A DNA stretch of 64,000 bases from an uncultured Fidelibacterota bacterium (GCA_937888365.1 CALBFA010000068.1:1-64000); one strand, 5' to 3'. Counted from the first letter of the stretch, positions 5,203-63,918 are shown. Made by a program: numbers and translations. Notes: generated by a model from the sequence alone, not told the origin.

Positions 5203-7209
5203 TTAATTTCGCAAATAATTCAATCTATTATTATAATATTCTAACGCCACGCGAACCAATTTTGGATTATGCACACTAAAGCTGCCTTCTTTTTCTAGCT
5301 TTTCTAGACCTGATCGAATCGTATTCAATTCCTTCTCTTGGCTGGCTCGCATCGTCATTTTCGACTTTTCAGCAATAATATCATTTAATCGCTTAATGTC
5401 ACGTTTCGTGTCTATTTTCCACTCTTCAATAAATTGAGGGTAAACAGCACTATGACACTTTACACACGCTAGACGATTTGTCCTCTGAATCGTACCATTC
5501 TCTGTCTCATGACACTTACGACATGTAATTTTATTCCCATGCATATAATCCGCAGATAAATCAGTTCCTAAGTCAATTGTTCCACTGCGAAGTTCGTTTT
5601 GCGTTGTATGACACGTTTCGCATTTTTTCTTTTTATCTTCGTGATGACAAGACAAACACTCGTTTTTATTCATCACCATTTCACCGTGTTTGGCTCTATT
5701 CGAGTGGCACTCGGCACATTTCATCTTCGCTTCGACAACATGTTGCTTGTGTTTAAATGAAAGATTAAATACACTTGTTTCTACATCTTCAATTCCATAA
5801 TGACAATTATTACAATCGGATGGAATCATATCATTATGCAGAACATTGAAATCCTGAATATCCTTCGAAACACCTAAGTAACCTGCGACTGTTTTTAAAT
5901 CTTCGTGAGTCGAGAATAACAATTTGTCAGAAAAACTAATATTATGAATCACATTCCCAGATTTTACCATCCCAAAATTATGCTTAGCTTGGGACATTTT
6001 CTCTGCGATTGAACTTTTCTGTTTCTCTGATAAACCAGGTTTATCGATATGAGTTTCGATAATTCGGATCGATTTTTCAATGGCGTCCATTTTGACAGCC
6101 ATTTGTTTTTGCCACTGATTTAAAATTCTATTGTATCCTTCGCCATGGCAAACCTCGCAAGAGTTATAATTAGCAGTATTATTTACACCAAAATCGCCAA
6201 TTCCATTTAATTCACTATGATAAACATGACAGGCTTGACAATTCAAACCGCTTTCAAACATTGGGTTTGGGTGCGCTTCAAAACCAATTGCACCTTTTCC
6301 GGTAAATAAATCAAGTTGGGCAACATGTGTATTCTGATGACAAGACTCGCATTGAGGTACGATATGTTCACTCCGCGCAACCGATTTATGTTGAATGGGC
6401 ATGTGGCAAGCCAGACATTCTATTTTATGTTGTGTAATGTGTAATTGATGAAGACTGTCTGGCCTGTTAAAAACTTCATTCACTTTCGTATCAGCGTGAC
6501 ACGTGCTGCAACGTTCGATAGGTGCTGCGCCAGTTCCATTATGCATATCACCGTGGCAGCTTTCGCATTTAATATTGCGCTCAAGTATCGAAGTGTGGTC
6601 ATATTCCACATCCGGCGTTTCCACGCTGGTAACAGGAGCCCTATGGCACGTCGAACAATTATTTAATTTGGGGATATCAACAGGCTCCTTAAAGTGACAC
6701 AGAAAACACGTCGATTCTGTGACGACAATATGCTCACCTTGAACAATTTGAGAGTGACAACTTGTACATCGAAGTTGCTTTCCATTACGTAAGCCTGTTA
6801 AATGTGCTGAGTGCCCAAAATTAATTCTACCTTTAAAGCTTAAGGAATCGCGTAACAGTTCTTTACTATGGCAGCCACTTCTTAAACAACTTGCATCAGG
6901 TATATCGGCATGAGGCTTCCCTCTTTTATAGACGCCTGTCGCGTAGTTTGCAACCATGGCAATAGCCGTAAACTTACCTTCGATTTTAGACATGATCCCT
7001 GGTGGGAAATGGCATTTTATGCAGGTGACATCTTTATGTGAAGACGTTTGCCATGCATCAATATACGGTTGCATATAGTGACAGCTCGAACAGAATGTCG
7101 GTGTTGAGGTAACTTCTACCATACCAAACAGCACAATTCCCGCTGCAATAATACCAGTAAATCCAAGCACCCAATAACGTAGTTTTTTATTTTGAATCGA
7201 TAATTTCAT
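5203..7209 (-). CDS. Membrane-anchored multihaem cytochrome c with NapC/NirT-like N-terminus; 17 CxxCH plus one CX4CH
   Basis: N-terminal TM helix followed by CSSCHYMQPYIDAWQTSSHKDVTCIKCHFPPG; haem motifs counted by eye. Confidence 0.85.
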   Translation of the reverse strand: MKLSIQNKKLRYWVLGFTGIIAAGIVLFGMVEVTSTPTFCSSCHYMQPYIDAWQTSSHKDVTCIKCHFPPGIMSKIEGKFTAIAMVANYATGVYKRGKPHADIPDASCLRSGCHSKELLRDSLSFKGRINFGHSAHLTGLRNGKQLRCTSCHSQIVQGEHIVVTESTCFLCHFKEPVDIPKLNNCSTCHRAPVTSVETPDVEYDHTSILERNIKCESCHGDMHNGTGAAPIERCSTCHADTKVNEVFNRPDSLHQLHITQHKIECLACHMPIQHKSVARSEHIVPQCESCHQNTHVAQLDLFTGKGAIGFEAHPNPMFESGLNCQACHVYHSELNGIGDFGVNNTANYNSCEVCHGEGYNRILNQWQKQMAVKMDAIEKSIRIIETHIDKPGLSEKQKSSIAEKMSQAKHNFGMVKSGNVIHNISFSDKLLFSTHEDLKTVAGYLGVSKDIQDFNVLHNDMIPSDCNNCHYGIEDVETSVFNLSFKHKQHVVEAKMKCAECHSNRAKHGEMVMNKNECLSCHHEDKKKKCETCHTTQNELRSGTIDLGTDLSADYMHGNKITCRKCHETENGTIQRTNRLACVKCHSAVYPQFIEEWKIDTKRDIKRLNDIIAEKSKMTMRASQEKELNTIRSGLEKLEKEGSFSVHNPKLVRVALEYYNNRLNYLRN

Positions 7210-7287
7210 ACCGTAAGGCTCCTAAAATATTGTGTTGATGCATCCCTATAAAAAATATTTTCGACTCAAGATGAATCTTTTCATTGA

Positions 7288-8295
7288 TTAGTTTTCAAAT
7301 ATGAGCAATTCCTCAATTAAAGGTTCTCGACCTATAATTTTCTTTGCTGCTTTGTACTTCTTTTTTGATTCTGAAGAGTTGTCCATTTTACCGAACAATA
7401 GACTCTCCAAATAAATTGTTTGATAATCATCGTCACTTATTTCCATTTTTTGAATTTTTTCAAGGGCGGATGCATAATTTTTATTAAAATACATAATCAA
7501 TGCTTCAGCATAAAGGAGTTCATCTTCTGTATAGAGTTCTGCCTTTAACACGTTCAAACTTTTTTCAGCCTCGGCATATTGCATTAACTGAATCTGAACA
7601 AAAACGCGCAGCAATTCTGCTCTAGGTGAAAGCGCTGATAAATTATCTAATTGTTGAAGAGAAGCATCATAATTGCCAAGCTCATACAGCTTAAAAGCGA
7701 AACGTTCATGACGATTATGTTTCTTCTCTTCAGGGCTATTGTGGATGCCTTCTTGGGACCCATTTGCCATCTTTTTGTCATGAATGAGCGCATGAATCGC
7801 GTTGATAGTCGTCATTGAAAAACCAGCATGGTATTCTTCAATGGAAAATGATGGGTTAATAACAAAAAGCGTTGGGAATACCTTTATACCAAATAAACTG
7901 AAGATAGCTTTTGAGTCTTCAATCACCTTCGTCCAGTTTGCGTCGCTAATTTTTTGCGCTTGGTCAACTTTTTCATTTTCCTCTTCAATAATGGTAAATT
8001 CCCATACTGTTAAAATATTGAGTTCATCTTTTTCGAGAACTTTTGCCAACTCCTGACGCATCTGAATACTATACTCTTGATTTTCTCGCGTAAAAAGAAT
8101 TAATCCAACATGCTTTGAGTTTTCCTGAAGGTTTTGGATATTTATTAAATAAGACATCATTTCATCCGTCAACTGTTCATGAAGATGTAACTTCCGACCC
8201 GCTTCTGTATCGTCTTGCGCTTTACTTGGTGTGGGAAAAAATAAACTCAATAAAAATATCCCAATAATTATAAAGCTACGGTGATAATGAATCAT
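7288..8295 (-). CDS. Exported thioredoxin-fold protein lacking CXXC, with C-terminal TPR-like region
   Basis: Signal peptide; KHVGLILFTRENQE... FPTLFVI (cis-Pro like) without CXXC; helical repeats after residue ~195. Confidence 0.5.
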   Translation of the reverse strand: MIHYHRSFIIIGIFLLSLFFPTPSKAQDDTEAGRKLHLHEQLTDEMMSYLINIQNLQENSKHVGLILFTRENQEYSIQMRQELAKVLEKDELNILTVWEFTIIEEENEKVDQAQKISDANWTKVIEDSKAIFSLFGIKVFPTLFVINPSFSIEEYHAGFSMTTINAIHALIHDKKMANGSQEGIHNSPEEKKHNRHERFAFKLYELGNYDASLQQLDNLSALSPRAELLRVFVQIQLMQYAEAEKSLNVLKAELYTEDELLYAEALIMYFNKNYASALEKIQKMEISDDDYQTIYLESLLFGKMDNSSESKKKYKAAKKIIGREPLIEELLIFEN

Positions 8296-8318
8296 TTTAC
8301 GTCACCAACTTTTGGCTA

Positions 8319-9611
8319 TTAGCGCTTATATGTCTTAGGTTTATGACAACCGGGAGCGCAAGAGCCTCCTGTCTTCGTTTTTGTATAGTTTAAAGGCAAG
8401 TCCCATCCACCAAACGGTACGAAATCGCGAATATGGCTTGGATTATTGGATGCATGCGTTTGATGGCAAGCGCGACACGTGCGACCTTTTTCCTGATTGA
8501 CATGTAAATAGTGCAAATTCACATCACCATTACGAAAATTAGTTAATTCTGTTGAAAAGGCATCAAGGACATTTTCGGGTGAATGGCATTGAAAACATAA
8601 ATCATAATTTTTCTGTTCAAACGGTGCATAGAACGATTTGGCATATTGAAATTTTAATAAGCTACCATTTTTACTAAAGTGGGGATTATGACATCCCGAA
8701 CAATTTTTTTCACGAATGGGACCATGTACAAATTTGCTATCTTCGATGAAACGTTTCATATTTGGTAAAATCTGAGTCCCAATTTGCATTGGTTTGTCAT
8801 GACAATCCATACAAAGAGAATAAGAGTCATTCTTCAGGACGGCCTTAAATTGTGATCCATGGGGATTATGGCAATTCATACAGGAGCGATCCGTGACCAA
8901 TGCTGAGTGAACATTTTTAGCATCAGCCATGGCAGGTTTCATCTCTTTATGGCAATCAAGGCATAGTCCAGGAGTGGCTGATTTTAGCATGAAATTTTGA
9001 TTGGATTCATGAGGGTTATGACAATTTGTACATTTTTCAACGACTGGTTTATGCTGAAATGCAACACTTTCAATTTCTGTCTTTTTGATTTCATGACAGG
9101 TAAAGCATTTTGCATTAATATTTAAAGAAGTTAGCAAAAGTTTCGCTTCGTCGCCATGACTTGCATGGCAAACATTACAGGCGCCGACGGCAACAGGTCC
9201 ATGGACAAAATCTTTTTTCCCAATTTTGTCTTTGTGGCAATTTGCACATAAAACAGCAGGCGTTGGATTGGAAAGCATTGAAACAACCTTGCTACCATGA
9301 GGATCATGACATGCTAAACATTCGCCTTTTTTTACAGGTGTATGTAAACCGATGGATTTAATGTCCGTTTTATGACATGCCAAACACATTTCGCCGCCAT
9401 TATTTTTCTTAAGTCCGTACTCATTCCCTTTTCGTTCGGGATGCTTCTTTGCATTTTCAACGTGACAAGACAAACAGTCTTGTTTTTGAATCGGATTATG
9501 AATATACTTTTTCTCAAGCATGTTAGCGTGGCAATTACTTTCAATGCACTGTGAAAATATGGGTTGAGCACTTAAAACTAGAATTATCCCAATATATTTC
9601 GCTATTCTCAT
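8319..9611 (-). CDS. Secreted multihaem cytochrome c, doubled-CXXCH type; 13 CxxCH plus one CX4CH and one CX3CH
   Basis: Signal peptide; repeated FVHGPV..G.C..CH.(S/P)H units; motifs counted by eye. Confidence 0.85.
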   Translation of the reverse strand: MRIAKYIGIILVLSAQPIFSQCIESNCHANMLEKKYIHNPIQKQDCLSCHVENAKKHPERKGNEYGLKKNNGGEMCLACHKTDIKSIGLHTPVKKGECLACHDPHGSKVVSMLSNPTPAVLCANCHKDKIGKKDFVHGPVAVGACNVCHASHGDEAKLLLTSLNINAKCFTCHEIKKTEIESVAFQHKPVVEKCTNCHNPHESNQNFMLKSATPGLCLDCHKEMKPAMADAKNVHSALVTDRSCMNCHNPHGSQFKAVLKNDSYSLCMDCHDKPMQIGTQILPNMKRFIEDSKFVHGPIREKNCSGCHNPHFSKNGSLLKFQYAKSFYAPFEQKNYDLCFQCHSPENVLDAFSTELTNFRNGDVNLHYLHVNQEKGRTCRACHQTHASNNPSHIRDFVPFGGWDLPLNYTKTKTGGSCAPGCHKPKTYKR

Positions 9612-9613
9612 GT

Positions 9614-9781
9614 TTAATTTTCCTCTGATAGATAAAATGGATGATGAAATTCTAAAAAATTAGTTTTTATAAAAAGACTGTGTCTAACAATAGATGTATC
9701 GTTGTGCTTATCGTCATTTAAACTGCCGTTGCTAAAAAAAGCGAGTTTTGCTTCCATGCTAGTAACCTGGTAATGAGTCAT
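9614..9781 (-). CDS. Unannotated 55-aa small ORF between two multihaem cytochromes
   Basis: Translated by hand: MTHYQVTSMEAKLAFFSNGSLNDDKHNDTSIVRHSLFIKTNFLEFHHPFYLSEEN*. ATG (9781-9779) overlaps upstream TGA (9783-9781) as TGATG; stop lies 2 nt before next ATG. Confidence 0.5.
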   Translation of the reverse strand: MTHYQVTSMEAKLAFFSNGSLNDDKHNDTSIVRHSLFIKTNFLEFHHPFYLSEEN

Positions 9782-10521
9782 CACAATGAATCTGCTTTCG
9801 TGATAAGGAAATGAACATTTGCTGCGTTATGTGCATCATGACACGAAATACACAATGCCTCGCCGGCCTTAAAATGTACAACTTTTTGCGTACTATTTGC
9901 CATGTCATGACAAAACTTACATGTCTCATTCCCAGGGAGTGTAAGCAGGTGCTCATTTTTACTTGAATGAGGATTATGACAAGCTTGGCACGCGCCCACT
10001 GAAACGGGACCATGGACGAAACCCGACAAAGATTTGTACTCTTGATGGCATTTGTAACAAAGCGGACTGATTCCAGAAGTTATCTCTTTTTTTAAATCCA
10101 ATTCATGACATTCATAACATTCTTTTTTTTCATAGGGTTTATGAACAAATAGCATTTTTGTAAATGGATTTTCGGATTCATTAACTATCTGTGTATTGTT
10201 AATATTCGGAATATTCGTCGAGTTTGTGTCATCTATTTGGCGTAAAGAATCAATCGGTACTATTTGTTGTTCCTCGGATGATTTTTTTCTACCAATCCCC
10301 AAAAGTCGTTTAATCTTTGTTATAAATGATGGCTTTTCATCAGCGACAGCAGCAGGATCTGAATATTGTATTTCAACATTCGTGGCATAATTATGCAATG
10401 ACAGATTCTCACTATAGCCATCATTCCCAGCCAATAAATGAGGACTTGCAAGAAAGATTAATGTACTAAAATATAATGAATAACGAATAATAGGTTTGAA
10501 CAATTTGTATCCTGAATTCAA
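9781..10521 (-). CDS. Exported five-haem cytochrome c, doubled-CXXCH type (TTG start)
   Basis: CYECH, CYKCH, CQACH, CKFCH, CISCH; FVHGPVSVGACQACHNPHS unit shared with 8319-9611. Confidence 0.75.
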   Translation of the reverse strand: MNSGYKLFKPIIRYSLYFSTLIFLASPHLLAGNDGYSENLSLHNYATNVEIQYSDPAAVADEKPSFITKIKRLLGIGRKKSSEEQQIVPIDSLRQIDDTNSTNIPNINNTQIVNESENPFTKMLFVHKPYEKKECYECHELDLKKEITSGISPLCYKCHQEYKSLSGFVHGPVSVGACQACHNPHSSKNEHLLTLPGNETCKFCHDMANSTQKVVHFKAGEALCISCHDAHNAANVHFLITKADSL

Positions 10522-10872
10522 ATTTTTACGAGAGAAGGCTTTAAATATTCATGGGAAAAAGCCATGTTATTATAGCGAAGTGCATCACATTTGATTAAAA
10601 ATAATTCATCAAAATATCGAAACGATTTAATAGTTAACATCTTACTTTTTTTAAGGATATTGAAAAAAGTGTTACTCAAAACAAATATTGTTTTTGTTAA
10701 AGATTTATTTTGTGTCATAGTACTCATTTAGGGCAAGTTTCATGCCTAATAACCCACAAATAATCCGTTTTTTCCTACCTTGCTAAACTTATTCATAATT
10801 AGTTCGATTCTTTTGATTCGCTGTTAAACCCCCTAAAAACATATTTTTTTAATATGGAGGAAACGTCCAGAA

Positions 10873-12804
10873 TCATTTTAATAATGTCACTTTTAGCATG
10901 TCATTCTGATTACCATTTTCTATTCGTATGAAATAAAGGCCACTGCTATAATTTGTTCCATTCCAAGTAAGAGTCAAGAATGATGTCGAAGGATAACCTT
11001 CATACAAATCCGTCACCCAGTTGCCTCGAGCATCAAATATATTCACTACTAAATTCTTTGTTACGTCAACTGTGATTTCAACATTAACAATGGGATTAAA
11101 TGGATTTGGATAAGCCGATTCAACTTTAAATCGCTGTGGTTTGGTATAATTCTCTGCTGATACGACACCTGGTACATCAATTTCAATTTGTTTGATTAAA
11201 ACTGGTAGATTCGGCAATGTTTCATAGTATTCCAAAAATTGGTTGACTTGAGGTGTATCGTAACGATTTAAATCAGCGATGTAATTCGGCGAAATCGACT
11301 GAAACCACAATGTTGTTTTTACCGTATGATCTTCGAAAATATTTAAGCTATCAATCAAATACTTAACCGAATCAATCCCTGTACCTTCAATGAAATTCGA
11401 CTGATTAAAATTCATATCGCTCAAAGCATTTCCTTCAATGCGAGTAGAATCATAGTGAGAGCCATCTTGGCGAAAGCCTTTTGGCGGGATGCGATTATCT
11501 TTGATATAACCCGCAATTCTCAAAAGAGTCCAAGTAGGGTCGCCATACATATCCTTTGGAACCGATTGATAGATCTGGACTTGTTTTTCCTCCGTGATAA
11601 GATCATAATGAGGCTCAAATAAGGTATCTCTTTCAATAATAACGCCGTTGGGTGATGTCCATTCTCCTGAATGAAAAACCGTATCACCGACACTATTTTC
11701 TACAATTACTTCAAGCCAAGCACGACGACTTGGATACGCCGTTGGGAATTTATGACCTGTTAAGTTTTCGATACCGATTGTAAAATCGAGTTTCCCGTTT
11801 TCTGTCCAATTAACAATTCCGTCGATATTGGCAGTGGAATTCGTGAGCATATCAGCTGTTCTCGCTAAAGTAGCATTAAAATTAGATAGCGAAGCCGTCA
11901 CGCCTAGAGCGGTTCGATATTCTTTTAGCATGCCCAACATGTAGCTATTTCCACCGACAAAAAAGTGTTGAAAAAACGGTGATCTCGCCTGTAAAAACAT
12001 GGGTTGATTTGCAATAACGATGCTTGCACCCAATACGGGCATATGGCAGGTTTGACATTCTATATTTTGAGCGGGGTAATCCGAATTAAGCCACTCAAGA
12101 TAGTCGGTTTGTTCGGGTGCTTCGCCCATAATTGTGCCAGTGCTATCGACATATGGCGTAAACAATGTGTGGCAGGTTGCACATAATTCGGATGTCTCCA
12201 TTTGAGGGCCATAGCTTGCAGTATAACCCGTCATATCGAACATATTTTGAGCGTTTAAGTTTGTGTAAGGACCGAAGATTACATGGGAATTATTGATTTC
12301 ATAATGACCCGAATAGGAGGCATCGGTACCGAGATTATCAGCTTGAATTTGATGGCATACGGTACAACTCACGCCATCCATAGCCAAAGGATCGGCATTC
12401 ATCTGAGCCATCGTATAGGTAAAACTGCCATTGTAATGCGCTTCCGTTCTTCCCATAGGAGCATGACATGTCGTACATTTATCTTCAATCACTGCTGTCA
12501 GATTTGGATTCTCCGCCACTTCTGCAGAGACTTTGGCTTGCCATAGTGGATCTTTCGCTGAATTCGCCATCATGGTAGATCGCCAATGTGTCGGCATCGA
12601 AATATCAACTCCGTTATACGTCAAAGCAGACGTATTGGGAGATCCCGGTGTGTGGCAAATTGCACAATAACCAGGACCCATAAATAAATTTGACACGTCC
12701 ATATTCAACGATTGAGCGTGCAAACCCACTACAAGGAATGCAAAAATACTGATTCGATAAATTTCATTTTTCAACATCATAATCCTACTCTCTACAAATT
12801 TCAT
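10873..12804 (-). CDS. Secreted five-haem cytochrome (c554-like) with T9SS C-terminal sorting tail
   Basis: CAICH, CTTCH, CTVCH, CATCH, CQTCH; C-terminus AYPNPFNPIVNVEITV...SGLYFIRIENGNQNDMLKVTLLK. Confidence 0.85.
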   Translation of the reverse strand: MKFVESRIMMLKNEIYRISIFAFLVVGLHAQSLNMDVSNLFMGPGYCAICHTPGSPNTSALTYNGVDISMPTHWRSTMMANSAKDPLWQAKVSAEVAENPNLTAVIEDKCTTCHAPMGRTEAHYNGSFTYTMAQMNADPLAMDGVSCTVCHQIQADNLGTDASYSGHYEINNSHVIFGPYTNLNAQNMFDMTGYTASYGPQMETSELCATCHTLFTPYVDSTGTIMGEAPEQTDYLEWLNSDYPAQNIECQTCHMPVLGASIVIANQPMFLQARSPFFQHFFVGGNSYMLGMLKEYRTALGVTASLSNFNATLARTADMLTNSTANIDGIVNWTENGKLDFTIGIENLTGHKFPTAYPSRRAWLEVIVENSVGDTVFHSGEWTSPNGVIIERDTLFEPHYDLITEEKQVQIYQSVPKDMYGDPTWTLLRIAGYIKDNRIPPKGFRQDGSHYDSTRIEGNALSDMNFNQSNFIEGTGIDSVKYLIDSLNIFEDHTVKTTLWFQSISPNYIADLNRYDTPQVNQFLEYYETLPNLPVLIKQIEIDVPGVVSAENYTKPQRFKVESAYPNPFNPIVNVEITVDVTKNLVVNIFDARGNWVTDLYEGYPSTSFLTLTWNGTNYSSGLYFIRIENGNQNDMLKVTLLK

Positions 12805-56087: not shown

Positions 56088-57482
56088 ATGAAGATGACTT
56101 ATTACTATATTACTCTTGTGTGCCTCATGTTTTCCATATCCTTTGCGCAAGAGCTTGCCGAAACCGACTCTGTCTATGTGAACGCCTGGAAATTGGCGAA
56201 TTCTGATGATAAAATTGATAGCAATGAACGTAGCTTCCTCGATATTTTAGCAAAATCACGTGGATTAAATCAAGCAGACATCCAGGCAATGGAAATAGAG
56301 TTAAAGATTACTCAACCTGATAAATTAGATCAATCAGGGCGTTGGCCTTTAGTGGCTCAAAACATGGTTTTAGGGGCGAGCCTTTACGGCTGGGGCGTAC
56401 CAACTGTCTTTGGCGATGTAGATGGACAATGGTATATCGGATCTACCATGCTCTCCGTTGGAGGAGCCTTTTACTATACGCATCAATACACACAAAATAT
56501 GGAAATTGACCACGCTCGGTCGCAAATGATGCGAAACGGTGCCCTTGTGGGCTTGCGATTTGGTTTTGCTCTTAACACTCTATTTAATCTTCATGAAACA
56601 TATTATTTTGAAGGTACTAATATTGAGGATGCTCAAATTAGAGACACCAAAAACGAAAAAATTCGTGCCTTGATGCTAATGGCGGCGGTGCCTGCAGGAA
56701 TTTACCTAGGTGATAAATTGTATCAAAAAGATAAACCTTCCAACGGAGATGCGTGGACTTTAGGGCTAACGTCAGCCGCAATGGATTTTACCGTATTTAC
56801 GCTCTACAACAGGTTGTTTAGCGAACCAGAAGAATATTTGTACCGTAATGAGACGAATGATTGGGGGACTTATAAAGTGAAGACTGGTATATCCCCAGAA
56901 TATACTAAATGGAAAAACAGAAGAATTATCGCTGGCCTGGCGAGTTATCCATGTAGTTATTACCTCGGAACAAAATTTAATCAGAATAAAATGTACACAT
57001 TTGGTGATGCATTAATGCTTTACGAGGCCTATGCGTATGGCCTATTAAACTCACTTTACTTATACAATATCTTTTTAGAAAACTCAGACATAGAGTTTGA
57101 AACATTAATGGTGATGTTCTCTGCTGGCGCCGCAGCGCAAACATATTACGTCGACCGACTTATCTCAAAAAATGATTTCACCTTTGGACAATCTATCCTT
57201 ATGAATTTAGGAAGTTTAGCTGGGATGGCTTTTGGAGCGGGTTTAGGCGTAATCGGTGAAGTTGATAATGCTAGTGGTTTTTCAATGCTCGCACTTTTAG
57301 GCGAAGTGGGTGGAGCCGCCCTTACGTACTCAATCCTAGATGTCGCACCCAATGGTTCACTGATGAGTGAAAATGCATCTGATATTAAATTCAATCTCAA
57401 TCCTACTTTTTTAACAGAATCAACATCTGATAATGGCAAGCCACGACTCATTCCTGGTTTGTCGGCTTCATTGCGTTTCTAA
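56088..57482 (+). CDS. Exported/membrane protein of unknown family, tandem paralogue A
   Basis: Signal peptide; shares LDQSGRWPLV.QNM.LGAS.YGW..PT and KPSNGDAWTL with next gene. Confidence 0.7.
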   Translation: MKMTYYYITLVCLMFSISFAQELAETDSVYVNAWKLANSDDKIDSNERSFLDILAKSRGLNQADIQAMEIELKITQPDKLDQSGRWPLVAQNMVLGASLYGWGVPTVFGDVDGQWYIGSTMLSVGGAFYYTHQYTQNMEIDHARSQMMRNGALVGLRFGFALNTLFNLHETYYFEGTNIEDAQIRDTKNEKIRALMLMAAVPAGIYLGDKLYQKDKPSNGDAWTLGLTSAAMDFTVFTLYNRLFSEPEEYLYRNETNDWGTYKVKTGISPEYTKWKNRRIIAGLASYPCSYYLGTKFNQNKMYTFGDALMLYEAYAYGLLNSLYLYNIFLENSDIEFETLMVMFSAGAAAQTYYVDRLISKNDFTFGQSILMNLGSLAGMAFGAGLGVIGEVDNASGFSMLALLGEVGGAALTYSILDVAPNGSLMSENASDIKFNLNPTFLTESTSDNGKPRLIPGLSASLRF

Positions 57483-57492
57483 GGAGTTCAAG

Positions 57493-58890
57493 ATGAAATA
57501 TTCATTTTTCGTTATTTTAACACTATTAATGTTCTCGATTGATTTAACTGCACAAGAAATAGTTTCTGTTGATAGCATGTATTTAGATGCTTGGAATGTA
57601 GCGATGAAAGACCAACATATTGATTCGCAGGAGCGGCGTTTTTTAGATATGGTTGGGCAGTCTAGGGGGCTTGATAGTCTTGGCATCAATGCAATGGAAA
57701 CCTACTTAAAGTCATTGCATCCCGATGAATTAGATCAATCAGGACGTTGGCCTCTTGTGGGTCAAAATATGATTTTAGGTGCGAGTATATATGGTTGGGC
57801 CATTCCAACTGCCTTAGGTGCTGAAGATTTCAAATGGTATATTGGTTGTACTATGCTGTCACTTGGTGGTTCTTTTATTGCGACGCATAAATACACTGAG
57901 ACTATGGAAATTAACCACGCTCGAGCTCAAATGATGCGTACAGGCACGCTGTTTGGATTACGATTTGGCTTTGCAGTGAATCAACTCTTGAATTTTAATG
58001 AACCCTATGATTCAGATTGGTATTACAACAATCCTGAACAAGATTTGGATCGAATTAGAAATGAAAAACGAAGAGCCGTGGTTCTCATGACGGCTATCCC
58101 GGTTGGAATGATTTTAGGGGATTATATGTATAAAAAGGATAAACCCAGCAATGGTGATGCATGGACCTTGACCTTAGGGATGTCAGTTTCCGCCCTAACA
58201 ACCCGAAGCCTCTACAATTTGGTATTTAAAGAACCCGAACAGTACAATACCACACGCGAATATAGCGGTTATGGCGATTATTATGATGTAAGAACGAGCG
58301 AAACTGATGAATACATCCGATGGAGAAATATAAAAACCGTTGTCGAATTGGCTGCTTATCCCGCGGGTTATTATCTTGGATTAAAATTCAATCAAAATAA
58401 AAATTATACATTCGGTGATGCCTTTATGCTTTACCAAGGCTATGGTTTTGGATTTAAAAATACCGGTAATATTCTAAATGCTTTTTTAGGTGACAATATC
58501 AGTGAGGAAACACTTTTAGTGTTGGCCTCAGCTGGCGGGATTGGCTTTGCCAAGTATTATGATAGCTACCTGGATAACGAAGATTATTCATTGGGTCAGT
58601 CTTCTCTTATGGCATTGGGCACGATTGCAGGTATGGCGACAGGAGCCGGCATTACTGCCATTCTAATGCCTGAATCCACGGAATTGTCTCAAATATTTGT
58701 GACGGCAGGAAGCGTTCTGGGGGCTTATTATACGCATTCTATCATTGATGTCTATAAAGATGGCGCATTGATTTCTGAAAATAGTCAATCATTAAAATTC
58801 AATATGACACCTACGGTTTTTACGGAAAGTTCCTCACCAAAAGAGCGAATGACGTTTGTTCCTGGAATTGCAATGCATGTGATTTTTTAA
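57493..58890 (+). CDS. Exported/membrane protein of unknown family, tandem paralogue B
   Basis: Likely start MKYSFFVILTLL, 10 nt after upstream stop; paralogous to 56088-57482. Confidence 0.7.
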   Translation: MKYSFFVILTLLMFSIDLTAQEIVSVDSMYLDAWNVAMKDQHIDSQERRFLDMVGQSRGLDSLGINAMETYLKSLHPDELDQSGRWPLVGQNMILGASIYGWAIPTALGAEDFKWYIGCTMLSLGGSFIATHKYTETMEINHARAQMMRTGTLFGLRFGFAVNQLLNFNEPYDSDWYYNNPEQDLDRIRNEKRRAVVLMTAIPVGMILGDYMYKKDKPSNGDAWTLTLGMSVSALTTRSLYNLVFKEPEQYNTTREYSGYGDYYDVRTSETDEYIRWRNIKTVVELAAYPAGYYLGLKFNQNKNYTFGDAFMLYQGYGFGFKNTGNILNAFLGDNISEETLLVLASAGGIGFAKYYDSYLDNEDYSLGQSSLMALGTIAGMATGAGITAILMPESTELSQIFVTAGSVLGAYYTHSIIDVYKDGALISENSQSLKFNMTPTVFTESSSPKERMTFVPGIAMHVIF

Positions 58891-59170: not shown

Positions 59171-59207
59171 GAAATAACCATAACCCAAAATGAGGAGGAA
59201 AGTTAAT

Positions 59208-62066
59208 ATGAGTCGTAAATTGTTACTCATGATAACTGCAGCTGTTCTTCTCCCTGCACTAGTTTTAGCACAGGGAACACTAACAGGGACAGTAACGGAC
59301 GCTGAAAGTGGCGAACCACTTGTAGGCGCAAATGTTTACCTAGAAGGTACATCTTTCGGTAGTGCAACAGATTTATCTGGCGCATATACGATTGGAAATG
59401 TTCCTGTAGGAACATATCAAGTTACATCTACTGTAATCGGATATGTTAGTACAAGCAATGATGTCCAAATTGCTGCTGGTATTGTAACCACAAGTAATTT
59501 TAGTTTAAGTGGACAAAACTTAGAAATGAGTGCCTTAGAAGTTTTAGCTTCTCGCGCAGGTAAAAATACTCCTGTAGCGTATTCAAATGTTTCCAAAGAA
59601 GAGATGGAAATCCGTTTGGGTTCACAAGATATTCCAATGGTTCTTAACACAACTCCATCAGTATATGCTACCAATCAGGGTGGTGGTGCAGGTGATGCTC
59701 GTATTAATGTCCGTGGATTTAATCAAAACAATGTCGCCGTTATGATTAATGGTGTTCCTCAGAATGATATGGAAAATGGTTGGGTTTACTGGTCAAACTG
59801 GGATGGTGTTGGTGATGCCACATCTTCTATCCAGATGCAACGTGGACTTAGTGCTGTTAATCTGGCAACACCTTCAATTGGTGGATCCATGAATATCATC
59901 ACAGACCCTACTGCTCTTAATGCAGGTGGTAGTGTCAAGCAGGAAGCTGGTTCTGGTTCCTTCCTGAAAACCACGGTTAACTATAACACCGGTCTCATCG
60001 CCGACAAAATTGCCTTAAGCGGTACCGTTGTTCGCAAAACTGGCGAAGGTGTTGTTGATGGCAACTGGACTGATGCCTGGGCTTACTATTTTGGTGCTGC
60101 CTATGCAATTAGCTCTGACAACCGTTTTGAGTTATATGCCCTTGGAGCTCCACAGCGTCATGGTCAGAACCTCTACAAACAGAACCTCATGGCTTATGAT
60201 AAAGAATTTGCTGCTGAAGTAGCTGATAAAGCTGCTCTGGAAGCTCTCGATTCTGATAATGATGGCACCAGTGACTGGGACGAATATGAAGGTAAGTTTG
60301 GAGAAGTTGGCCATTTATTTAACCAGAATGTAGCTGACATTAGCTCTGACTATAAAGGTCAGCAATATTGGTACATGTATGGTGACAAAACCATGGATAG
60401 ATATGATCCCAATTTCTTGAACGAACGGGAAAACTACTTCCATAAACCACTGGTAAATTTGAACCACTACCTCAACCTCACAGAGAAGATGAGGCTCTCA
60501 TCGGTTCTGTATTGGTCAGGTGGTTCTGGTGGTGGTACTGGCACCTATGGTAAAATTCCAACCTTGGATGCCGATGGAAATCTGGGTGATGACGACTACA
60601 AATACTATTATGGTGACGGTCCCTGGACGAGGGATTGGAATACCCTGGTTGCCTATAACTCCGGTAGCGCAGATTCTGTTTATGTTGACAAAACCAAAAT
60701 CTACCGCACACATGGTGCCGGAAACAATCAGTCCGTAGGTATCCTGCGTAACAGTATCAACCGTCAGAACACGATTGGATTGATTTCCAAGTTGAACTTT
60801 GACATGAGTGATCTGCTCAAACTTCAGGTTGGTATCGACTGGCGTACAGCTGGAATAGAGCACACACGTGAAGTACGCGACCTTATGGGTGGCGACTATT
60901 ACCTGGATGACTCAGATCCAAATGTAAACAATGGTGAAGCTTATAAGGTGGTACTCGGAGATAATATTGATTATCACAGTGAAACTACTGTTGACTGGAT
61001 TGGTGGATTTGCCCAGGCTAGTTATAGCGCAGGTGCTATTAATGCCTATGGTATGGCTGGTTTCTCATCCATCAAATACTCATACCAGGATCTGTTTACT
61101 ACCGAACAAGAAGTCGTTAAATCTGACGCTATCGGTGCCATTCAGGTCAAGGGTGGCGGTATGTTTCACCTAGCGGATAATTTCAACATATTTGGAAATT
61201 TTGGTTATGTTGAAAAACCACCAATCATGGACAATGTCATCTATTTTGATGGTAGTGTCGCGGCAGATCCCGCTAATGAGAAATTCACTAGCACGGAATT
61301 AGGTGTTAACTACAAGGCAAAAATGTTTGCAGTTACAGCCAATGCTTACAACACTGATTGGAAAGATCGCAACTTGACCAAAGCAGTTACCAGTGGACAG
61401 GGTTCCAGTGGTGATACAGATGTTATCTTCCTGACAGGTGTCAACCAGAACCATAAGGGTATTGAAGTTGAGGCTTCGGTACAACCTATGCAAATGCTCC
61501 GGTTGGATGCAGCCTTGAGTTTCGGTAGCTGGCAGTTTACTGGCGATGCCGATGGAAATTACCAGAACGAAGCCGGCGAAACTCTTGGTGAGTACAGATA
61601 TGCTCTGAAAGACCTTAAGGTTGGTGACATGCCTCAGACAGCTTATGTCTTAGGTGCCACACTTATGCCTATCAAGGGATTAAGAGTCCAAGCTCTGTAT
61701 AGTATTTATGATAATAACTATTCAGACTGGAGCCCTGATAGTCGTCAAATCGACGATGCTGATGATGATGGCGTGCTTAGTGAGGCTGAATTAGCCACTG
61801 CAGATCGCGATCAAGTATGGGCAGCGCCAAGCTATTCCAAAATGGATCTGCATGTAACCTACGATCTGCCAAAGATTGCAGGGATCAATGCTCAGCTATT
61901 CACTCACGTTTTCAATGCACTTGATGCTACCTACGTTCAAGATGCAGTTGATAATAGCCAATACAATGGTTGGTCAAATGGTTCCAACAGCCATTCCGCT
62001 GAAAGAGCTGAAGTGTTCCTTGGAACACCTCGTTTTATGAACTTTGGGTTGAGGCTACGTTTCTAA
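59208..62066 (+). CDS. SusC/RagA-like TonB-dependent receptor with N-terminal carboxypeptidase-regulatory-like domain
   Basis: GTLTGTVTDAESGEPLVGANVYLEGTSFGSATDLSGAYTIGNVPVG, plug domain RINVRGFNQNNVAVMINGVPQND; start MSRKLLLM after GAGGAGG. Confidence 0.88.
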   Translation: MSRKLLLMITAAVLLPALVLAQGTLTGTVTDAESGEPLVGANVYLEGTSFGSATDLSGAYTIGNVPVGTYQVTSTVIGYVSTSNDVQIAAGIVTTSNFSLSGQNLEMSALEVLASRAGKNTPVAYSNVSKEEMEIRLGSQDIPMVLNTTPSVYATNQGGGAGDARINVRGFNQNNVAVMINGVPQNDMENGWVYWSNWDGVGDATSSIQMQRGLSAVNLATPSIGGSMNIITDPTALNAGGSVKQEAGSGSFLKTTVNYNTGLIADKIALSGTVVRKTGEGVVDGNWTDAWAYYFGAAYAISSDNRFELYALGAPQRHGQNLYKQNLMAYDKEFAAEVADKAALEALDSDNDGTSDWDEYEGKFGEVGHLFNQNVADISSDYKGQQYWYMYGDKTMDRYDPNFLNERENYFHKPLVNLNHYLNLTEKMRLSSVLYWSGGSGGGTGTYGKIPTLDADGNLGDDDYKYYYGDGPWTRDWNTLVAYNSGSADSVYVDKTKIYRTHGAGNNQSVGILRNSINRQNTIGLISKLNFDMSDLLKLQVGIDWRTAGIEHTREVRDLMGGDYYLDDSDPNVNNGEAYKVVLGDNIDYHSETTVDWIGGFAQASYSAGAINAYGMAGFSSIKYSYQDLFTTEQEVVKSDAIGAIQVKGGGMFHLADNFNIFGNFGYVEKPPIMDNVIYFDGSVAADPANEKFTSTELGVNYKAKMFAVTANAYNTDWKDRNLTKAVTSGQGSSGDTDVIFLTGVNQNHKGIEVEASVQPMQMLRLDAALSFGSWQFTGDADGNYQNEAGETLGEYRYALKDLKVGDMPQTAYVLGATLMPIKGLRVQALYSIYDNNYSDWSPDSRQIDDADDDGVLSEAELATADRDQVWAAPSYSKMDLHVTYDLPKIAGINAQLFTHVFNALDATYVQDAVDNSQYNGWSNGSNSHSAERAEVFLGTPRFMNFGLRLRF

Positions 62067-62085
62067 GCGCTAAACTCTGTTCAAT

Positions 62086-62121
62086 TAAAAAAGTCCCGGG
62101 CAGTGCCCGGGACTTTTTTTT
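62086..62121. terminator. Strong bidirectional terminator
   Basis: AAAAAAGTCCCGGGC-AGT-GCCCGGGACTTTTTT. Confidence 0.9.
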
Positions 62122-62159
62122 ATAACGAATGATTAAGAATTGTAGAGTTTGAGCTGAGC

Positions 62160-62497
62160 TTAATCCTGATTGAAGAAGGATTTAATATACTCACCCAGCG
62201 TAAGTTTCTTAAATCCCCGAAACTCTCCGGCGTCCAGATAGACCCCGTTGCATTGCTGGCAGCGCTCGAACTGGATGGGACTGCGTCCTCCCCCGATCTC
62301 TGGCATCATCATTTTCTGGCACTTCGGGCACTTCGGTCGTATATTTTTATTATTTTCTGCGCCAATTTCAACGTCACCAATATCCACAACCTCAGATCCA
62401 GCCAGCTTTTTCAGGTCATTCAGCTCAAAATCATCAAACCAGAGTCCATAGCAGGATGAACAGCGATTAATCTGGACCAACTCGAGTTGTAGATTAT
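62160..62497 (-). pseudogene. 5'-truncated zf-TFIIB-type zinc-ribbon protein
   Basis: CSSCYGLWFDDFEL and CPKCQKMM...CQQCNGVYLDAGEF; expected N-terminal CPxC knuckle and ATG absent; only TTG start, in-frame stop just upstream of NLQLELVQINRC. Confidence 0.6.
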
Positions 62498-63862
62498 AAT
62501 AAAACTATTGCCGTTAACCTTGACTCCCTTGATCGAAAAAGTAAAGCTAAAACTTTAGGCGTTTCGAATGCAATTTTAAGAAATAGTGTCAATCGTCAAA
62601 ATACATATGGCGCAATTTCTAAATTAAACTTCGATGTAAGTGATGCTTTAAAACTACAAGCTGGCATTGACTGGCGTACGGCTGAGATTGAGCACGCACG
62701 CGAAGTTCGTGACCTGCTTGGTGGTAGCCATTATGTTGATTATGCTGATGCAAACTTTGCAAGTGGACATGAAGTTGGTCTTGGTGATATCATTGCATAC
62801 CACAATACAACAACAGTTGATTGGATTGGTACATTTTTGCAAGGTGATTATACAGCCGGATCTCTTTCAGTTTATGGTATGGGCGGCGTTTCTTCTATCG
62901 TTTATTCCAATCAAAACCACTTTACAGTAGCTAATGAAAAAGTTATTGCACCCGCCATTTCAGCCACACAGTTTAAAGGTGGTGCTATGTTTAATCTTCA
63001 AGATAACTTTAGCGTTTTTGGTAACTTTGGTATTGTTGGCAAACCACCCATCCTTGACAATGTTATTGATTCTGATGGTGCCGTATCCTCTGATCCTATT
63101 AACGAAAAATTCGTTAGTGCTGAGATGGGTTTAAATTTCAATGCGGGAATGTTTGCAGTTACTGCAAATGTTTACAATACGAATTGGAAAGATAGAAACC
63201 TCACAAGATCAGTTGTTACAGGCGCTGGCGACAGTGGCGATACTGATATTATCTACTTAACAGGTGTTAACCAAACTCATCAAGGTCTTGAAATTGAAGC
63301 TTCTGCTCAATTAATGGATATGTTACGCATAGACGCAGCCGTAAGTCTAGGTAACTGGAAATTTGATGAAGATGCAGTTGGTGAATATAAAAATGAAGCT
63401 GGCGACCTTTTAGGCACTTATAATTATGCTCTAAAAGAATTATTCGTTGGTGACATGCCACAAACATCTTTCGTTTTTGGCGCTACCGTTACACCTATGA
63501 AAGGTCTTAGATTGCAAGTTATTGACAGTTATTATACTAAAAATTATGCAAACTGGAGTCCTACAAGTCGTAGTTATGATACCGGTACTGCTGAAGCAGA
63601 TATTGATAGAGAACAAGTATGGGAAGCACCATCATATAATAAAATGGATATTCATGCCTCTTATAACTTGCCAAAAATTGCTGGTTTAGACCTCAATTTC
63701 TTTGTCCATGTTTTCAATGCTCTTGACGCAACTTATGTACAAGACGCACTTGATAACAGTCCTTATAATGGCTATGGCGGAACATCACATGATGCTGATA
63801 ACGCTGAAGTCTTTTTAGGTACTGAAAGATTCTTTAATACAGGAATCAAAATTAGATTCTAA
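62471..63862 (+). pseudogene. 5'-truncated SusC/RagA-like TonB-dependent receptor (C-terminal part)
   Basis: Open frame from 62471 reading ...VVDYNKTIAVNLDSLDRKSKAKTLGVSNAILRNSVNRQNTYGAISKLNFDVSDALKLQAGIDWRTAEIEHAREVRDLLGG, homologous to the middle/end of 59208-62066; no N-terminus. Confidence 0.8.
62478..62489. repeat. 12-bp perfect palindrome at the truncation junction
   Basis: CAACTCGAGTTG equals its reverse complement. Confidence 0.8.
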
Positions 63863-63883: not shown

Positions 63884-63918
63884 AAAAAAGCTCCGATTTT
63901 TTCGGAGCTTTTTTTTTG
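63884..63918 (+). terminator. Rho-independent terminator after truncated receptor
   Basis: AAAAGCTCCGA-loop-TCGGAGCTTTT plus T-run. Confidence 0.85.

Follow-up and report, generated by a model that had tools for sequence, protein, structure and literature searches.

Homology-facilitated illegitimate recombination (HFIR) has a signature of three parts: one homologous crossover, one join through 3-10 bp of microhomology, and an insertion coupled to a deletion (PMC3240628). A locus that probably arose by HFIR is described here in an uncultured marine Fidelibacterota bacterium (GCA_937888365.1), in a window of 64,000 nucleotides that covers bases 1-64000 of contig C68 (74,405 bp). At this locus, a gene for a TonB-dependent receptor combines a resident 5′ part with a plug and β-barrel from a related genus, and is followed by a startless Zn-ribbon (zf-TFIIB) gene and an orphan 3′ half of the resident receptor. 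The draft genome comprises 2.53 Mb in 110 contigs, with a completeness of 95% and a contamination of 0.17%, and its relatives are metagenome-assembled genomes (MAGs) of Candidatus Neomarinimicrobiota. It is the sole representative of its genus (g1) among the genomes compared. The sister genus (g2) is represented by 19 genomes, both genera belong to the family f1, and phylum-wide comparisons covered 245 genomes. In what follows, resident means of the g1 type and donor means g2-like.

HFIR: The cases reported in Streptococcus pneumoniae, Acinetobacter baylyi, and Pseudomonas stutzeri share with this locus the homologous crossover, the microhomology join of 3-10 bp, and the gain of foreign DNA at the cost of a resident stretch of about 1 kb (PMC3240628). 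In contrast, those events were selected in the laboratory, whereas the present one is reconstructed across genera, and from a single draft genome of a wild bacterium. Unlike in the HFIR cases, the second half of the gene has a homologous counterpart in the donor too, which leads to a hybrid gene and a partial duplicate.

Orphan 3′ arrays: The idea behind HFIR has also been applied, as a displacement model, to the displaced 3′ ends of Vibrio type VI secretion system (T6SS) loci and to orphan 3′ regions at Rhs loci (PMC5361080). The orphan 3′ arrays of T6SS effector-immunity, Rhs, and contact-dependent inhibition loci resemble the present locus in their conserved 5′ anchor, replaced downstream part, and displaced old 3′ end (PMC5361080). 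However, the displaced module here is a receptor β-barrel and not a toxin tip with its immunity gene, there is a single orphan and no array, and keeping the orphan half of a receptor brings no known benefit.

Mosaic receptors: Mosaic outer-membrane receptors arise by recombination, for example in Neisseria. In those receptors, as here, surface-exposed parts of the barrel are exchanged within one receptor gene. The Neisseria exchanges involve related strains, whereas the exchange at this locus would have taken place between genera, leaving behind an illegitimate scar and half of a gene as an orphan. The locus appears to illustrate well, in an unusual phylum and under natural conditions, a type of recombination that is already known, and is not a new kind of system.

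Organization of the locus

An original prediction, made from the DNA alone, held that one native receptor had its middle replaced by DNA of a related organism, with a homologous crossover on the left and an illegitimate junction on the right. This reading is supported by the order of genes, by codon usage, by trees, and by comparison with relatives. The features of the locus are as follows.

59190-59522, plus strand: 5′ part of the hybrid receptor, with signal peptide and CarboxypepD_reg-like domain, of the resident g1 type
59523-62066, plus strand: plug and β-barrel of the hybrid receptor, g2-derived, with the frame kept across the crossover
62067-62121, no strand: intergenic stretch with the hairpin AGTCCCGGGCAGTGCCCGGGACT followed by T8 (62092-62121), a donor-type terminator; the g2 alignment continues to 62121
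62160-62477, minus strand: Zn-ribbon gene (zf-TFIIB, PF13453), convergent with the receptor, first ~17 codons gone
62471-62477, no strand: right junction, with the microhomology TCTGGAC (~7 bp), which fits both the Zn-ribbon codons (minus strand) and the resident receptor codons S-G-P (plus strand)
62478-62489, no strand: 12-bp palindrome CAACTCGAGTTG in resident receptor coding sequence beside the junction, no role assigned
62471-63862, plus strand: 3′ half of the resident receptor left as an orphan, startless but open for 463 codons, PF00593 β-barrel (second barrel half only)
63887-63917, no strand: terminator-like hairpin GCTCCGATTTTTTCGGAGC and T run of the resident receptor itself, after the orphan half, as read directly from the sequence

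Source of the replaced segment

The segment 59523-62121 is 80-83% identical in nucleotides to g2 receptors. When a 17-kb g2 receptor locus is compared with this genome, the 80% level is found only at 59523-62121, whereas the identity is 70% for Lon and 67% for the 3′ fragment. Other genes of the window, including SecA, give a baseline of 67-71% over their main matches to g2. Between residue ~215 and the C terminus, the receptor is 66-96% identical in amino acids to g2 receptors, the same range as within g2, and at synonymous sites the block agrees with g2 as closely as g2 members agree with each other. In the tree, the barrel of the hybrid nests within g2 (Shimodaira-Hasegawa-like approximate likelihood ratio test, 99-100). 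The similarity continues past the gene, with 94.9% identity to a related sequence (L067) at 62085-62123. The replaced piece extends from the plug through the barrel and the terminator into the neighboring gene. Its length is nearer 2.95 kb than the ~2.6 kb first proposed.

In the tree of residues 231-470, g2 is not recovered as one group (p 0.0006), which indicates that loops of the receptor also recombine within g2, and these residues were left out of the evidence for transfer. Two allele types occur within g2 near residues 455-500, one in G002 and G014 and the other in the remaining genomes.

Composition agrees with this division. The GC counts given earlier (22, 27, 36, and 18 per 60 nucleotides) were all exact on recount, and the composition shift claimed from them is borne out segment by segment by codon usage and by GC content at third codon positions (GC3). 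The GC3 is 0.20 at 59208-59537, 0.41 at ~59850-62063, 0.53 in the Zn-ribbon gene, and 0.24 in the 3′ fragment, and in the 44 other genes of the window it has a mean of 0.34 (standard deviation 0.04). The codon log-likelihood ratio of donor over native usage is +130 bits for the block and +17 for the Zn-ribbon gene, against −17 for the 5′ part and −23 for the 3′ fragment, and it is negative for all 44 other open reading frames (ORFs) of the window. Compared separately, the three segments of the receptor thus differ in source and codon usage, and the claim of a mosaic stands.

Left breakpoint

Residues 1-110 of the receptor are 50-61% identical in amino acids to g2 receptors, which mostly share 74-98% among themselves in this part, and residues 1-105, taken alone, are 50-59% identical to the g2 receptors. 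The tree of residues 1-105 places the sequence outside g2 with a support of 98.6. At 59,523, nucleotide identity to the closest g2 sequence rises abruptly from 64-68% to 83-86%, and the frame is kept within the aligned gene. The foreign segment thus appears to start at a homologous crossover, the first element of the HFIR signature. The composition block described in the original prediction is confirmed, whereas its left edge lies at ~59,520 by nucleotide identity and not at 59.7-59.9 kb.

The range for this breakpoint by nucleotide identity is 59,478-59,568, with 59,850 as the latest position. Residues 110-215 are strongly conserved across the phylum, and because part of the rise in identity reflects this constraint, the crossover could lie anywhere in 59,523-59,850. 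The sharpness of the step and the synonymous sites favor a crossover at the start of this interval. A crossover at that start would fall between the end of the N-terminal domain (residues 25-109) and the start of the plug (residues 119-226).

Right junction and Zn-ribbon gene

On the minus strand, homology to the Zn-ribbon family reaches 62,475-62,477 (V-Q-I-N-R-C). On the plus strand, homology to resident-type receptors extends down to 62,471 (S-G-P-T-R-V-V-D-Y-N, compared with S-G-P-S-R-V-A-D-W-N in two relatives, L108 and L109). The Zn-ribbon homologues have GTC CAG, of which the reverse complement is CTGGAC, and resident-type receptors have TCT GGA CC, with GAT TAT TCT GG[CT] CC in three of the sequences (L115, L136, and L139). 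The right end would thus be a microhomology join within the 3-10 bp of HFIR, with both parental sequences deduced from relatives. It had been proposed that a Zn-ribbon gene and a receptor, both truncated at their 5′ ends, meet at about 62471-62497; they do meet there, and the join can be narrowed to 62,471-62,477.

The Zn-ribbon gene lacks ~17 N-terminal residues relative to its relatives, as had been claimed. Its strong homologues are confined to family f1 and occur in 13 of the 245 phylum genomes, this one counted. The gene order in g2 is receptor, convergent Zn-ribbon gene, and Lon, and the Zn-ribbon gene is the convergent neighbor of the receptor in six genomes (G016, G014, G009, G006, G003, and G018). 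The Lon gene of the present genome lies on a different contig without an adjoining Zn-ribbon gene. The GC3 of 0.53 exceeds that of every g2 homologue (0.35-0.45) and differs from the resident value of 0.34 with P ~4e-5. From this composition and gene order, the Zn-ribbon gene would have been carried in together with the receptor block, minus its start. Composition and the Lon neighborhood speak against a native Zn-ribbon gene, which is retained only as part of a two-step explanation considered below.

Two further candidates at the junction were rejected. The palindrome had been placed exactly at the junction; it lies to the right of it, wholly in receptor codons (CCA ACT CGA GTT GTA, matching CCT TCG CGA GTT GCA in L108). 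As a recombination or hairpin site it finds no support, since perfect 12-bp palindromes are ordinary in the window (18 observed, 19.75 expected from shuffles) and folding at the junction is not unusual relative to shuffles (z −0.09). A promoter-like pair formed at the junction (62473-62500, 10/12) is not above chance, with nine such pairs found against 14 expected.

Orphan half of the resident receptor

The downstream receptor has lost its first half and resumes at the position equivalent to ~60,630 of the hybrid, close to the ~60,650 of the original prediction. It shares about 56-69% of its amino acids with most phylum homologues, with 60-65% reached in every lineage of the phylum, and its nucleotide identity to g2 (66-68%) is at the vertical level. 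A tree with the orphan half as sister to g2 plus the hybrid is not rejected (p 0.73), whereas grouping it with g2 and keeping the hybrid out is rejected (p 0.035). The orphan half may therefore descend vertically. Its 463 codons contain no stop, and it departs at only 2 of 127 conserved columns, which suggests that the truncation is recent or that the piece is still constrained. The undecayed sequence would also fit a stored cassette, in which plug-barrel modules are exchanged at the fixed boundary of N-terminal domain and plug and displaced barrels are kept for gene conversion back, as in Rhs and T6SS arrays. However, it equally fits a recent event, and such a cassette is judged highly improbable.

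Hybrid receptor

The hybrid ORF (59190-62066, plus strand) is intact, with 958 codons, or 952 when counted from the likeliest start, the ATG at 59208. Pfam matches are PF13715 at residues 25-109 and the plug PF07715 at residues 119-226. The barrel model PF00593 matched only the orphan half, which aligns to the C-terminal half of the hybrid, and on this domain set (PF13715/PF13620, PF07715, PF00593) the protein belongs to the TonB-dependent receptors with a CarboxypepD_reg-like N-terminal domain. The label SusC-like, used at first, does not hold, since the NCBIfam model for SusC/RagA (TIGR04056) scores 44.4 bits against a cut-off of 368.25. No SusD partner gene adjoins the receptor, which is flanked upstream by ORFs that have no Pfam match and downstream by the hairpin, the Zn-ribbon gene, and the orphan fragment. 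Immediately upstream lie two related, adjacent ORFs (56088-57482 and 57433-58890; 464 and 485 amino acids) with no Pfam or NCBIfam matches. The AlphaFold2 model of the hybrid has a mean predicted local distance difference test score of 45 and is unusable.

Proposed event

In the HFIR reading, a single incoming fragment from a family member close to g2 would have altered the resident receptor gene. The fragment would have paired with this gene and undergone a homologous crossover near residue 105, at the boundary of N-terminal domain and plug. Its other end, ~3 kb further on and inside the donor Zn-ribbon gene, would have joined the middle of the resident receptor through the 7-bp microhomology. 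About 1.1 kb of the resident receptor would have been lost and about 2.95 kb gained, so that insertion appears coupled to deletion of resident DNA beside the homology, as in HFIR. The products would be a complete hybrid receptor, a startless Zn-ribbon gene, and the orphan resident 3′ half downstream. The hybrid would keep the resident promoter, signal peptide, and N-terminal domain with a foreign plug and barrel, and may be functional with altered binding or import. HFIR starts from the uptake of linear DNA and depends on RecA. The genome has homologues of dprA and comEC, which makes DNA uptake a possible route, though their presence does not demonstrate it.

Several points weigh against this account. 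The Zn-ribbon gene is only 52-59% identical in amino acids to its g2 homologues, even though the receptor block reaches 84-88% with the nearest g2. This gap means that no sampled genome is the donor, and that the donor is unsampled or the block was already composite; neither a closer donor nor a second g1 genome was found among the 245 phylum genomes or in one contig scan. In addition, the GC3 of the orphan half falls under the resident mean, g1 is represented by one genome among those compared, and the receptor region near the plug is prone to mis-assembly in metagenomes.

Alternative explanations

The last point leads to the first alternative, an assembly chimera, already raised in the original prediction, in which the contig enters a co-occurring g2-like genome through shared plug k-mers and returns falsely at 62.47 kb. 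The assemblies of many relatives have a contig end no more than 300 bp from the orthologous receptor, and frequently inside or close to the conserved plug (G010:C3, G016:C162, G014:C78, G009:C212, G011:C92, G003:C13, G008:C10, G015:C50, and G022:C29), and the left side is thus a place where assemblers err. The block also has exact stretches of 35-40 bp in common with other genomes, including one of 38 bp within 59,751-59,834, and the genome is a draft of 110 contigs. However, the overlap of ~7 bp at the right join seems too short for a k-mer assembly error, and 62120-62520 has no exact match of at least 17 bp to the relatives compared. Moreover, the contig comes back to the resident gene that it left, with the orientation unchanged, the estimated contamination is low, and the lost resident middle (residues ~106 to ~470) is found nowhere else in the assembly. 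A chimera is judged unlikely.

The second alternative takes two steps. Tandem resident receptors would have flanked the Zn-ribbon gene in an ancestor, the first would have been converted by g2 DNA in an ordinary two-sided homologous exchange up to the terminator (62121), and a separate deletion would have fused the Zn-ribbon gene to the middle of the second. Tandem receptor pairs do occur in other Neomarinimicrobiota-related MAGs (L119, L142, and L143), with the second copy 50-53% identical to the query. Identity at the g2 level stops at 62121, short of the Zn-ribbon gene, and the divergence of that gene is at the vertical level. On the other hand, this sequence of steps requires two events and an ancestral tandem that is seen in no f1 genome, the Zn-ribbon gene is far from resident genes in GC3, and it adjoins Lon in g2 but not here. 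This course of events is likewise considered unlikely.

That no transfer occurred, with constraint and codon bias producing the composition step and the identity and with the 3′ fragment as an old paralogue, is extremely improbable. In its favor, the phylum-wide conservation of residues 110-215 explains part of the left-hand rise. Against it, one genome holds a barrel inside g2 and the same domain outside it, synonymous sites agree with g2 at the within-g2 level, and a single point marks the loss of the 5′ end of both the Zn-ribbon gene and the fragment.

Other features of the contig

Past the window, a gene for a phage-type tyrosine recombinase (PF00589) lies at contig positions 72238-73263 (L055:14238-15263), ~1.1 kb from the contig end. 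Within the window, positions 5203-12804 hold a row of genes that resemble those of multihaem cytochromes and are rich in CXXCH motifs.

Implications

Caution is needed, as the receptor gene is a spot where metagenome assemblies break. If real, the locus would preserve in readable form a natural case of one-sided homologous recombination that crossed genera in a marine phylum without cultures, since both breakpoints, the DNA lost, the DNA gained, and what was left behind can all be traced. It would also represent a way in which a bacterium may swap the plug and barrel of a receptor while the N-terminal domain and the promoter stay.

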